Part shown: one piece after another, positions 46,259 to 51,326 of the stretch
How the letters are laid out: each line of letters starts with the position of its first letter
How positions within the stretch are numbered: position 1 is the stretch's first letter
Origin: Methanoculleus sp.
GTDB taxonomy: Archaea > Halobacteriota > Methanomicrobia > Methanomicrobiales > Methanoculleaceae
DNA: 64,000 nucleotides
Assembly (NCBI RefSeq): GCF_030019085.1
Contig: NZ_JASEFJ010000001.1
Span: 1-64,000 of the forward strand
Direction of reading: 5' to 3'
The notes under the pieces: model-generated
What the model was told of the DNA's origin: nothing
The model's input: only the letters and a program-made list of their open reading frames with translations
Databases searched by the model: none
Position numbers and translations under genes: made by a program

Positions 46259-46968
46259 TGCTCGCATTTCGTGCAGTCCGACAACTCCGCGATTTCGTCC
46301 TTGATCTCGCGCTATCAGTCAGGCCCGGGGAGACCCTTGTCCTGATCGGGGAGAACGGCGCGGGCAAGTCGACGGTGCTGAACCTGATCTCCGGCATCCT
46401 CACACCCGATGAGGGGGAGATCACGCTCGGTGATAAAATACTCTTCTCGAGCGAAGAGCGGATCAACGTACCGCCCGAGAGCCGGAACATCGGCCACCTC
46501 TTCCAGTCCTACGCCCTCTTCCCGCACATGACCGTTGCTGAGAACGTAGCGTTCGGTCTCCGGTGCAGAAGGCTACCAGAACCGGAGATCAAGCGCGCGG
46601 TTGCGGAGCAACTTGCGGTGATGAAGATCTCAGAACTCGCGGATATCAACGTAGGCCGACTCTCCGGTGGACAGCGACAGCGTGTAGCCCTCGCCAGGGC
46701 ACTGGTGCTCGAACCGGACCTCCTCCTGCTCGACGAACCTCTCGCCGCGGTAGACATGCGTGCCCAGAGTGCAATGCGCCGTGAACTCCGCGAGAGGATC
46801 CGGGAGACCGGTATCCCGTGCATCATCGTCACCCACAACCTGCGTGACGCCGTGGAACTCGGTGACCGTCTCTGCCTCATCGAGGATGGAAGGCTGTTTG
46901 CTGATGGCAGACCGGAAGAGGTGCTCGGAATGCGGGAAAACGGGTTTATCGCGAGTTTTGTCGGGTAG
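46258..46968 (+). CDS. modC: Molybdate/tungstate ABC transporter, ATPase
   Basis: 236 residues. Walker A GENGAGKST, signature LSGGQRQRVALARAL, Walker B LLLLDEP. It ends right after the nucleotide-binding domain, without the C-terminal MOP domains that in longer ModC proteins bind oxyanion and inhibit transport. Its 3' end overlaps the convergent ogg gene by 23 bp. Confidence 0.93.
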   Translation: MLAFRAVRQLRDFVLDLALSVRPGETLVLIGENGAGKSTVLNLISGILTPDEGEITLGDKILFSSEERINVPPESRNIGHLFQSYALFPHMTVAENVAFGLRCRRLPEPEIKRAVAEQLAVMKISELADINVGRLSGGQRQRVALARALVLEPDLLLLDEPLAAVDMRAQSAMRRELRERIRETGIPCIIVTHNLRDAVELGDRLCLIEDGRLFADGRPEEVLGMRENGFIASFVG

Positions 46969-47848
46969 CAGGGTTCAAGGCGGTGAAACCGTTTCTTGCC
47001 GGCAGCCCACTCCGCCGGACGCAGTAGAGATACTCCTGTGCATACCCGGCGTAATCCCCGAAGTATTCCCGTGCAAATTTTCGGATCCGCTCATAGACCG
47101 TAGGGGTGCATTCCCTCCCCTCAAGTTCCGGGAGGTACGCCTCTGTCATGATCCGGTGGATCCAGACATCGACCGGAAACGCCTCGAAGAAGCCGAACGC
47201 AAAGAGCAGCACGCAGTCAGCCGCCTTCGGGCCGACCCCTCGAAACCGCATCAGCGCTTCTCGGGCCTCCTCGAAAGGGAGGGCGGCGATCCGCTCCGCC
47301 CAGTCCTGGTTCTCCGCCACATACAGAGCGGCCTCCCTGACCGCGTCCGCCCGGTAACCGACCTTGCACTCCCGCAGGTCTGTGCAGGAGAGCGTTGCAA
47401 GTGCCTCAGGTTCCGGGAACGCATAAGCCCTGCCGGCAGGTCCTTCTATCGGTTTTCCGTAACGCTCTGCCATGAGGGCGATCCGTCGCTTCACCGCCGG
47501 GATGTTTGTGTTTGTGGCGCAGATGTAGGAGACCAGGCACTCCCAATGGGGTTGCCTGACCAGCCTGAGACCCATGCACTCCCTGATGGCAGCGCCGATC
47601 ACGGGATCGCGATCGATCGAGGCGAGGATGGACTGGATGTCCTGATCGAGCCTGAAGTAGTCGCTGATGAACCGCGCATCCGCTCCGGTAAAGATAAGAA
47701 GGTCACCCTCCTGCCGTATCCGGATCGCCCTCCCGGCCACGACACCATACCACCAGCCGTCCACCTCCTCCCAGCGGAACGCCTGCCCGCAGGATAGCGT
47801 CCGGTCGAGGTCAAACGGTTGGTCAGGCCGGAGCACCATCGTTCTCAT
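46946..47848 (-). CDS. ogg: 8-oxoguanine DNA glycosylase/AP lyase (Ogg1 type)
   Basis: 300 residues: N-terminal OGG_N domain (LSCGQAFRWEEVDGWW) and an HhH-GPD domain with RGVGPKAADCVLLF (catalytic Lys) and FPVDVWIHR (catalytic Asp). It removes 8-oxoguanine and nicks the abasic site. ATG 47839 (three codons in) is an alternative start. Only 24 bp downstream of nifB, so probably cotranscribed with it. Confidence 0.93.
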   Translation of the reverse strand: MRTMVLRPDQPFDLDRTLSCGQAFRWEEVDGWWYGVVAGRAIRIRQEGDLLIFTGADARFISDYFRLDQDIQSILASIDRDPVIGAAIRECMGLRLVRQPHWECLVSYICATNTNIPAVKRRIALMAERYGKPIEGPAGRAYAFPEPEALATLSCTDLRECKVGYRADAVREAALYVAENQDWAERIAALPFEEAREALMRFRGVGPKAADCVLLFAFGFFEAFPVDVWIHRIMTEAYLPELEGRECTPTVYERIRKFAREYFGDYAGYAQEYLYCVRRSGLPARNGFTALNPATRQNSR

Positions 47849-47871: not shown

Positions 47872-48783
47872 TTATTCGCTCTTCTCATCCTTCGTCTGCT
47901 GGTAGACACAGGACTGGACGTCCTGGCCGAGTTTCCCGATCGCGTCCGCCCTGCAGCGGGCACAGTGGCGCATCTGTTTGATGTAGGGAGCACACCGGTC
48001 CTGCATCTCTCGTTTCTCTGTCGGTGTTGGAGGATTGATATTGGCGAACTTATACTGCGGGATGAGCGGTATGACGTTGAAGGTGAACGCTCCCATCTCC
48101 CCGACCTTCTTTGCTATCTCCGGGATATGCTCGTCATTAATCCCCGGGATGTAGACGGTGTTGATCTTTACAAACATCTTCCTTGCAACAGCCATCTCGA
48201 TTCCGCGGAGTTGCCGGGAAAGCAGGAGTTCAGCCGCCTCGCGGCCGTGATACCTCTTACCCTCATACTCTACCCAGGAGTAGATCTTCTCCCCGATCTC
48301 CGGATCGACGGCGTTGAGCGTCACCGTAACGTTCCCGACATCGTATCTCTCCAGGTCATCGATCGAGTCGGGGAGCAGGAGCCCGTTCGTGCTGATGCAC
48401 ATGATCAGGTGTGGGAACTCCTCGTGGACAAGCCGCAACGTCTCAAAAGTCTCGGGGTTTGCCAGCGGTTCGCCGGGTCCCGCGATGCCGATCACCTTGA
48501 CATAGGGGTAGTCTCTGATGACTTTTCTGACCAGGTCAAGCCCCTCCTGTGGGCTGAGGACTCTGCTCGTCACCCCCGGCCGGCTCTCGTTAACGCAATC
48601 GTAGTTCCGCACGCAGTAGTTACACTGGATGTTGCATCTCGGAGCGACGGGGAGGTGACACCGCCCGAAGGCGTGGCATGCTTTATCGGAATAACAGGGA
48701 TGTTCGCTGATCTTTCGCAGTTGCTCCGGATCGTAAGGAACTTCCCTGCCCTCAACCGTCGCGGTCCGGTATTCGTCGGCCAT
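47872..48783 (-). CDS. nifB: NifB-type radical SAM protein (FeMo-cofactor core synthesis)
   Basis: 303 residues, the short methanogen form without a NifX domain. HLPVAPRCNIQCNYC gives the radical SAM cysteines C50, C54 and C57; EHPCYSDKACH (C30, C36, H37) and the C-terminal RHCARCRADAIG supply ligands of the accessory clusters. NifB builds the carbide-containing [8Fe-9S-C] precursor. No nifHDK genes are in the window; the molybdate transporter is 0.9 kb away. A TATA box (GTATATAACC) lies about 25-35 bp before the ATG. Confidence 0.9.
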   Translation of the reverse strand: MADEYRTATVEGREVPYDPEQLRKISEHPCYSDKACHAFGRCHLPVAPRCNIQCNYCVRNYDCVNESRPGVTSRVLSPQEGLDLVRKVIRDYPYVKVIGIAGPGEPLANPETFETLRLVHEEFPHLIMCISTNGLLLPDSIDDLERYDVGNVTVTLNAVDPEIGEKIYSWVEYEGKRYHGREAAELLLSRQLRGIEMAVARKMFVKINTVYIPGINDEHIPEIAKKVGEMGAFTFNVIPLIPQYKFANINPPTPTEKREMQDRCAPYIKQMRHCARCRADAIGKLGQDVQSCVYQQTKDEKSE

Positions 48784-48844: not shown

Positions 48845-50857
48845 TCAGGCCGCCTCCCCGGCATCAAGTGGCAACCGTTCTGCACCATCTCCCCGTGTTC
48901 TGTTTTCCATCTCCATCCCAAACCGCTCCTCTGCGGTTTTGAGGATCCGACCGAGCATCGCGGTGTATGAGAGGCCCGCATACTTTGCCATCTTTGCAAG
49001 ATGACCATCCCAGCACCACCCCGGGTTCGGGTTGACCTCCAGGAGTTTCGGGTTGCCCTGAGCATCGAGACGCCAGTCGAACCGGCAGTAGTCGCGGCAC
49101 TCAAGACGCTCGAAGAGTGCGATGCAACACCTCACGATCAGTTTCTCGGTGTCCTCCGGTAGATCCGCGGGTTTCGATGTGATCTTCCAGTAAGGTGAGT
49201 CCGGTAGCCATTTTGCCTCGTAGCCGCATATTCGTGGAAGTTCGGGTGGCAGCGCGGAGTAGTCCTCTTCGATGATGGGAAGCACCGTGCATGGTCCTGG
49301 CGGGTTCCCGATGATCCCGACGCTTATATCCTTACCGGTGAGGAACTCCTCGAGAAGGAGCGAGCGGTCGTAGCCGAGCGTTGCTCGCATGGAGTTAATG
49401 ATATTGGAGATCTCTTCGATGGTGTGGGCGATACTCTTTGCGGTAATGCCGTATGAGGAGTCACCCGTGTTCGGTTTGACGATCACCGGGAAATTCACCC
49501 CAACCTCGTAGGTGCGGTCACCCGGTGCGATAAAACAGGCCTCCGGCACCGGTATTCCCATCTCCTTTGCGATCCCGCGGACGAGCGATTTATCGTAGCA
49601 GAAGGCGAGCGACTGCGGCCCTGCTCCCGTATAGGGGAGGTCCAGCATCTCAAGAAGCGCCGGCACGTGGAGTTCCCGGCGAGGGTCGTTGTTGAAACCC
49701 TCGTCGCAGAGGTTGAGGACATAGTCCACCCGTCCTTTCAGCCTCAGGAGATCACGGATAAGCGTATCGTGCTTGCATAGGTAGGTGAACCGGTACCCGG
49801 GCAGTTCGCGGAGGGCCGCCTTCATGCGTTCGATGGTGTAGATGTCATCGTCGTCAAAGACGCAGGCAGGTTTCAGCGGATCGGGTTTGTCCGGGTCGCC
49901 GAGTAGCACCGCTATGTGTTTTGTCCTTCCCTGCCCTCTCCCCCTCGTCGTCGACCTAGTCGTCGACCATTCTTTCCTGATCTGAGCGGTGACGATGTAT
50001 CGGCGCTCCATCATGCCGAGATCCTGGTTGCGCTCTGACTCGGTGGCGATCTCGTGGAAGGCGATCTCGGAGAAACCTGCCCGTTCCAGGAGTCTCTGGA
50101 GTGCATCCGGGGTGTAGAGACGTTCAGCGTAAAACTGGTCGGCCACAACGCCCTTCTCGACATCGGTGATAACCTCGCGGGATATCAGGCGCTGTTCATC
50201 CAGCGAGAGCGACCGTTCGCGGCAGACAAACATCCCCGTGTCGATCCACTCCCACGACCTTGGTTGAAAGTGCGCTTTGAGATACCCGCCGTCGGCAATA
50301 TCCAGCAGTAGCCGTCCCCAGGGCTTCAGAACGCGCCGGAGCTCGTTGAGGATCTGCATATCCTCATCAACGGAATCGAAGTAGCCGAAGCTGTTCCCGA
50401 GGACGAGGGCCACGTCGTAGGTGTCGTTGCGGTATGGGAGCCTCCTTGCATCCCCCTCCCGGAACCTGACCGCAAGTCCTTCCTTCTTTGCGGTCGAGCG
50501 CGCGCGCTGGATCAGGTAATGCGACCGATCAAGCCCCTCGACGTTATATCCCCTGCGCGCAAGTTCCAGGGTATGTCTGCCCTGGCCGCAGCAGAGATCA
50601 AGGATCTTATCATCGGGTTGGAGGTGCAGGATCCGGATGATCCGGTCGATCTCATTCCTGGTGATCCGGGGATCTTCGACAACGTCGCCATCGGTCTTGA
50701 GATAGAGGTTGTTGAAGATACCTCTCCACCAGTCAGGCTTTACGTAATTCTCCAGATTTGGGACAGGGCCTAGTGACCTCCTCTCCTGGTGTTTGCCCCG
50801 GCGCCTGCTATCTGGGGGTTCATCAGTGTTTGCTTCGCCGTTCATGCCGGTCAGCAT
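48845..50857 (-). CDS. Fusion of SAM-dependent methyltransferase and ATP-grasp ligase
   Basis: 670 residues. Residues about 40-290 are a class I methyltransferase (motif I LDLCCGQGRHTLEL near 87-100, DVALVLGNSFGYFDS). After a Thr/Arg/Gly-rich linker (about 295-312) comes a D-Ala-D-Ala ligase-like ATP-grasp domain (about 315-640) with FPVIVKPNTGDSSYGI, LLLEEFLTGKDISVGI and the metal-binding LLEVNPNPGWCWDG. The frame is unbroken. It suggests methylation and ATP-dependent ligation of one product, identity unknown. ATG 50845 is an alternative start. Confidence 0.85.
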   Translation of the reverse strand: MLTGMNGEANTDEPPDSRRRGKHQERRSLGPVPNLENYVKPDWWRGIFNNLYLKTDGDVVEDPRITRNEIDRIIRILHLQPDDKILDLCCGQGRHTLELARRGYNVEGLDRSHYLIQRARSTAKKEGLAVRFREGDARRLPYRNDTYDVALVLGNSFGYFDSVDEDMQILNELRRVLKPWGRLLLDIADGGYLKAHFQPRSWEWIDTGMFVCRERSLSLDEQRLISREVITDVEKGVVADQFYAERLYTPDALQRLLERAGFSEIAFHEIATESERNQDLGMMERRYIVTAQIRKEWSTTRSTTRGRGQGRTKHIAVLLGDPDKPDPLKPACVFDDDDIYTIERMKAALRELPGYRFTYLCKHDTLIRDLLRLKGRVDYVLNLCDEGFNNDPRRELHVPALLEMLDLPYTGAGPQSLAFCYDKSLVRGIAKEMGIPVPEACFIAPGDRTYEVGVNFPVIVKPNTGDSSYGITAKSIAHTIEEISNIINSMRATLGYDRSLLLEEFLTGKDISVGIIGNPPGPCTVLPIIEEDYSALPPELPRICGYEAKWLPDSPYWKITSKPADLPEDTEKLIVRCCIALFERLECRDYCRFDWRLDAQGNPKLLEVNPNPGWCWDGHLAKMAKYAGLSYTAMLGRILKTAEERFGMEMENRTRGDGAERLPLDAGEAA

Positions 50858-51149
50858 CCCCTGGTTTCTTTTCCGGAATCGGACATGTATCCTCCCGGTT
50901 TACAAAATAGAACGGTTGTAGTCTGCATACCTGGATGATCATTCGATAGGATGGTATCGATAAAAGTGTTGTGTCATGACTCCCCCTCTCCATGGAAAGA
51001 ACCCCGTAAGTGCGAGATCTCCCGCATTGTATACCCGTCAGATGCCGGGCGGCGCAGGATGGATGCGATGCCATGAATTGCCCGGGTCACATCTATATAT
51101 GCAGGCGGGTCATCAGGGTATGTGCAGATTGTCTGCATGGTTGAAGTAT

Positions 51150-51326
51150 ATGAATGAGAGATACCCCCGCAGGGGCCCAAGTTCGTTCCAGGACCGCCCT
51201 CGCGAGTTCCATAAAGCGGTCTGTTCCGACTGCGGCAAAGAGTGTGAAGTTCCTTTCAAGCCCACGGAAGGTAGGCCGGTCTACTGTCGCGACTGCCTTC
51301 CCAGGCACAGAAAACCCAGATTTTAA
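51150..51326 (+). CDS. Small CxxC zinc-ribbon protein
   Basis: 58 residues: basic N-terminus, then CSDCGKECEVPFKPTEGRPVYCRDC and a basic RHRKPRF tail. The two CxxC pairs form a zinc ribbon of a small archaeal/bacterial family; nucleic-acid binding is likely but unproven. The frame is open upstream, but ATG 51150 is the first good start after the TATA box CTATATATG (about 51092-51100). Confidence 0.75.
   Translation: MNERYPRRGPSSFQDRPREFHKAVCSDCGKECEVPFKPTEGRPVYCRDCLPRHRKPRF

Follow-up and report, generated by a model that had tools for sequence, protein, structure and literature searches.

N-acetylglutaminylglutamine synthetase joins an amine-capping GNAT domain to an ATP-grasp ligase, and the pathways to N-acetylglutaminylglutamine amide and N-acetyl-beta-lysine combine an enzyme that caps an amine with a ligase or an aminomutase. 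For the D-Ala-D-Ala ligases (Ddl) we take as established the sequence of E. coli DdlB and the roles of its residues in binding ATP/Mg2+ and the substrate, the latter being E15, H63, Y216 and S281. The methyltransferase NmbA N-methylates the cysteine of bacillithiol (PMC12719100). The SET protein Go1-SET of the archaeon M. mazei has been shown to methylate MC1-alpha, a chromosomal protein, in vitro (PMC3980110).

The window, a stretch of 64,000 nucleotides from Methanoculleus sp., encodes a fusion of a methyltransferase to an ATP-grasp enzyme (Table 1). This is a genuine enzyme family that combines two domain types already known and is undescribed as far as the searched literature shows, in which no account of such a methyltransferase–ATP-grasp fusion was found. 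The minus-strand frame is uninterrupted over 670 codons. Its translation probably starts at the second Met, because L031, the nearest relative, does not have the first ATG in frame. Pfam matches to Methyltransf_25 (aa 85-181, 7.7e-21) and Dala_Dala_lig_C (aa 434-639, 4e-24) are both far over cut-off and, together with the open frame, bear out the initial annotation, which had read here one frame joining a SAM methyltransferase to an ATP-grasp ligase. The "low-complexity linker" described there does correspond to a joining stretch (about aa 298-314), which is actually short and variable: its sequence drifts at a near-constant distance between the domains, the spacing from GMMxxR to GD[PH] being 36-39 residues in all measured fusion sequences but one. 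The structure model (pTM 0.55) gives modest confidence for the orientation of the domains.

Table 1. Features of the fusion locus, with positions in the window
Feature	Position	Strand	Remarks
Whole fusion gene	48845..50857	(-)	670 aa as listed; likely real start 50845, 666 aa
Class I SAM methyltransferase domain, aa 34-300	49958..50758	(-)	Pfam; nearest solved structure NmbA 9ri2
SAM-binding motif I ILDLCCGQGRH, aa 85-95	50573..50605	(-)	(Nearly) invariant in 33 diverse members
Variable linker, aa 301-314	49916..49957	(-)	Length near-fixed across the family; low model confidence
D-Ala-D-Ala-ligase-like ATP-grasp domain, aa 315-648	48914..49915	(-)	Pfam; profile and fold matches Ddl/VanA
Invariant NPNPGWCWDGH loop, aa 609-619	49001..49033	(-)	Sits at the second D-Ala site of Ddl
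SET-domain protein gene, 159 aa	53181..53660	(+)	Pfam SET 2.3e-16; co-occurrence; possible accessory
nifB	47872..48783	(-)	Downstream of the fusion gene
ogg	46946..47848	(-)	Downstream of the fusion gene
Short ORF	50976..51326	(+)	Divergent from the fusion gene

The same single-frame domain order is found in 56 of the 232 genomes of the window's class, not counting six additional matches that are single-domain paralogues, and a search of genome contigs located relatives on 494 candidate stretches from archaea and many bacterial phyla. These numbers rule out an assembly error or a chance fusion; the initial annotation had named uniqueness to this assembly as the finding that would undo its reading. 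The best 80 of the 494 stretches encode full-length or almost full-length proteins and include Planctomycetota, Deltaproteobacteria, Aminicenantes, Atribacteria, Chloroflexota, ANME-1, Jordarchaeia and Altiarchaeota, with the proviso that some carrier contigs may be misbinned. L071, a contig with the title Candidatus Nitrosotalea, has a fusion gene almost identical to the ANME-1 type along with a shared neighbour and is probably such a case. The median pairwise identity of members outside Methanoculleus is 67%, a value biased upwards because these members come from the best 80 of the 494; the family extends down to about 50% identity in the phylum of G237. Its distribution is patchy, with the fusion present in 8 of 294 sampled genomes of that phylum and hits in 10 of 297 from the G267 phylum, two of the ten being the methyltransferase alone. 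Carriers include methanogens and many uncultured bacteria, the latter mostly of anaerobic habitats. The gene tree, whose backbone is weak, intermixes Bacteria and Archaea with at least 8 domain changes by parsimony, which suggests transfer between the domains of life. The search for phage or plasmid copies of the fusion returned only distant single-domain relatives. Separate neighbouring genes for the two halves, which the initial annotation had envisaged elsewhere, were not found, only the methyltransferase being seen alone. Two Desulfobacterota genomes encode such a stand-alone protein (45-51% identity) without a matching ATP-grasp, indicating that the two activities are separable.

The second half of the structure model matches Ddl structures with a TM-score of about 0.8, normalised to the targets. 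The ATP/Mg2+ residues of Ddl that were compared are all retained: K97, K144, E180 and K215 correspond to K423, K461, E503 and K549 of the fusion, and R255, D257, E270 and N272 to R592, D594, E607 and N609. The substrate residues E15, H63, Y216 and S281 of DdlB are replaced by P325, E386, W550 and G618, the first and last being less certain assignments in gapped columns, and where Ddl has its second-substrate loop the fusion has the invariant NPNPGWCWDGH loop. Scores fall below the cut-offs of PRK01372 (119.6 bits versus 243) and TIGR01205 (111.9 versus 245.65). The domain thus has the fold and ATP/Mg2+ residues of the Ddl/VanA family (PF07478) but differs from it in the residues that bind both D-Ala, in having an invariant GWCWDGH loop and in its attachment to a methyltransferase. 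To judge from its sequence, keeping the ATP/Mg residues while changing the substrate residues is what a working ligase acting on other substrates would show. The replaced residues and low scores also agree with the earlier view that the enzyme is not a peptidoglycan D-Ala ligase in this archaeon.

The closest ATP-grasp relatives outside the fusion family form a Ddl-like, non-Ddl clade devoid of methyltransferase. In other Halobacteriota these sister proteins adjoin lysine-2,3-aminomutase-like (KamA-like) and GNAT proteins, some domains being fused; in Thioflavicoccus they adjoin diaminopropionate/diaminobutyrate genes and KamA, and in rhizobia MFS transporters. The Halobacteriota loci L163 (4884-8558), L164 (6059-9730) and L165 (5318-8989) each combine KamA-like, one or two Ddl-like ATP-grasp and GNAT components, variously fused, and look like a beta-amino-acid dipeptide pathway. 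These clusters share with the fusion the Ddl-like, non-Ddl clade with its NLAEG and EAKW motifs and the presence of a second amine-modifying domain or gene; they differ in having an acetyltransferase and an aminomutase, no methyltransferase and no GWCWDGH loop. A further 716-aa frame in L124 (694-2844) combines a Ddl-like ATP-grasp with what appears by eye to be an M20-type peptidase-like domain.

The methyltransferase half has a mean column identity of 77% in an alignment of 33 diverse members, which conserve SAM motif I and the SFGYF region. Motif I and a match to a Methyltransf Pfam profile place it among class I SAM methyltransferases. NmbA (PDB 9RI2) is by far its best match of solved structure (2e-26 versus 1e-15 for the next), and their alignment, made at the sequence level, spans almost the entire domain, cap region and SFGYF motif included. 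The similarity is nevertheless distant, most fusion carriers lack a bacillithiol pathway, and the fusion has an added ligase. Unfused methyltransferases of a Methanomicrobiales genome, a Sinorhizobium plasmid and a Desulfobacterota genome likewise match NmbA best, one of them more strongly, so that the likeness is a trait of the whole methyltransferase group. Being distant and common to unfused relatives, it does not secure N-methylation over O- or C-methylation.

Downstream of the fusion gene lie nifB and ogg on the same strand, and a TATATAA-like box stands about 30 nt ahead of nifB, both as first annotated. nifB follows the fusion in close relatives only, and a functional link of nifB or ogg to the fusion was discarded, such synteny carrying no functional information. 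No conserved operon partner recurs across lineages among the clustered and scanned neighbours of about 62 loci outside Methanoculleus. The neighbour families are scattered (MFS, MgtE, MarC, tRNA m1G methyltransferase), and an AstE/AspA-like deacylase adjoins the fusion in L078 and, by clustering, in L094, which are two phyla and too few. This absence of a recurring partner favours a self-sufficient, single-protein pathway. The short ORF divergent from the fusion ends in a CxxC zinc-ribbon-like stretch; in six Methanoculleus loci a 116-aa cluster is again found close to the fusion.

We favour the hypothesis, giving it an even chance of being right, that the fusion is a bifunctional enzyme making an N-methylated dipeptide-like small metabolite. 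Its ATP-grasp half would turn a carboxylate, most likely of an amino acid, into an acyl phosphate and couple this to an amine in the style of D-Ala-D-Ala ligase with different substrates, while the methyltransferase half would move one or more methyls from SAM onto a nitrogen of the substrate or product. A single protein could in this manner make the product out of common metabolites. We infer ATP-dependent amide formation by analogy with the ATP-grasp superfamily, N-methylation by analogy with NmbA, and small-molecule substrates and self-sufficiency from the absence of a conserved partner gene. The kept ATP/Mg2+ residues of Ddl, SAM motif I and NmbA as nearest solved relative argue for this hypothesis, as do a domain order and linker length fixed over many phyla and the amino-acid modifying enzymes adjoining the sister ATP-grasps. 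Against it stand the remoteness of the NmbA likeness and the stand-alone methyltransferases of Desulfobacterota, in which the two activities are parted. A small product both methylated and ligated, as the initial annotation had proposed, would best fit the fusion, whose two domains are conserved and carry cofactor-binding motifs; the specifically archaeal or wall-related role considered alongside finds no support, because bacteria of many phyla encode this protein too. That methanogens and these bacteria keep about two-thirds identity, with two apparently intact active sites, would point to a metabolite missed by surveys. As the fusion stands alone in most genomes, a single purified protein and a single knockout could be enough to identify its product. 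Cultured Methanoculleus has the gene and so, judging from placement only, does Methanosarcina, where genetics are routine.

A special case of the N-methylated dipeptide is a compatible solute, the methylated counterpart of N-acetylglutaminylglutamine amide or N-acetyl-beta-lysine. The partly fused KamA-like, ATP-grasp and GNAT components of the sister clusters are consistent with it, and N-acetylglutaminylglutamine synthetase offers a parallel in architecture by uniting an amine-capping domain with an ATP-grasp ligase, although it transfers acetyl and not methyl. However, record titles assign many carriers to freshwater sediment, groundwater and digesters, and we know of no such N-methylated solute from methanogen surveys, which makes a solute unlikely.

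A macromolecular target would be compatible, too, with identity close to 67% across domains of life. The fusion could then modify a protein or RNA, its ATP-grasp adding an amino acid that the methyltransferase caps, and a SET protein, of protein-lysine methyltransferase type, could act on the same target. The SET gene of the window is homologous to the two SET genes of the Desulfobacterota locus L176, directly behind which lies a stand-alone methyltransferase 51% identical to that of the fusion. SET genes of this family occur almost only alongside the fusion: within the class it is present in 37 of the 39 genomes that have them (19 genomes have the fusion alone), and in the phylum sample in 15 of 17, with 6 of 7 outside the class. 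Two of these 17 genomes, G053 and G470, hold SET fragments only, G053 being also without the fusion. The two genes often stand at unlinked places, and their wide separation in f4 and f8 means that linkage cannot account for the association in these. SET is rare in Desulfobacterota (4 of 297 genomes), and two of these four carry the fusion or the methyltransferase half of it (p about 0.006). The Fisher values for the co-occurrence as a whole, uncorrected for kinship, overstate the association. Conservation, this co-occurrence and the in vitro activity of the archaeal SET protein on MC1-alpha speak for a protein or RNA target. Against it, only 8 of the 75 tested genomes with the fusion or its methyltransferase outside the window's class have this SET family, those ATP-grasp relatives whose function is known ligate amino acids, and no conserved target gene lies close by; we consider such a target quite improbable. 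The activity of Go1-SET on MC1-alpha means that the job of the SET protein may be unrelated to the fusion, to which its gene is possibly an accessory and not a part. More speculatively, and on balance doubtfully, an undescribed small-molecule pathway widespread among anaerobic archaea and bacteria could have the fusion at its core, with SET acting in some carriers on the product or target of the fusion, which would give prokaryotic SET proteins a metabolic or tagging role.

The match to NmbA and the apparently mostly anaerobic carriers could alternatively point to an N-methylated low-molecular-weight thiol, the ATP-grasp adding cysteine to a partner. This reading is weak, since the NmbA likeness extends to the whole methyltransferase group and BshA is over cut-off in only 9 of 48 carriers; we regard it as very improbable. 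Six of these nine also have a BshC match, so the fusion is no stand-in for BshC, and a bacillithiol enzyme or BshC replacement was rejected for most carriers. BshC was not found in the window's genome. A cell-wall D-Ala-D-Ala ligase or close derivative, with which Pfam and fold group the domain, is scarcely credible in an archaeal host and was rejected on the four replaced substrate residues and on scores far under every Ddl cut-off.

The gene is dispensable, as it is broken in G118 and G056, the latter also with an in-frame stop, and was not seen in the 99% complete genome G053. The broken copy with a central deletion in L127 (5491-6573) is a sign of gene decay.
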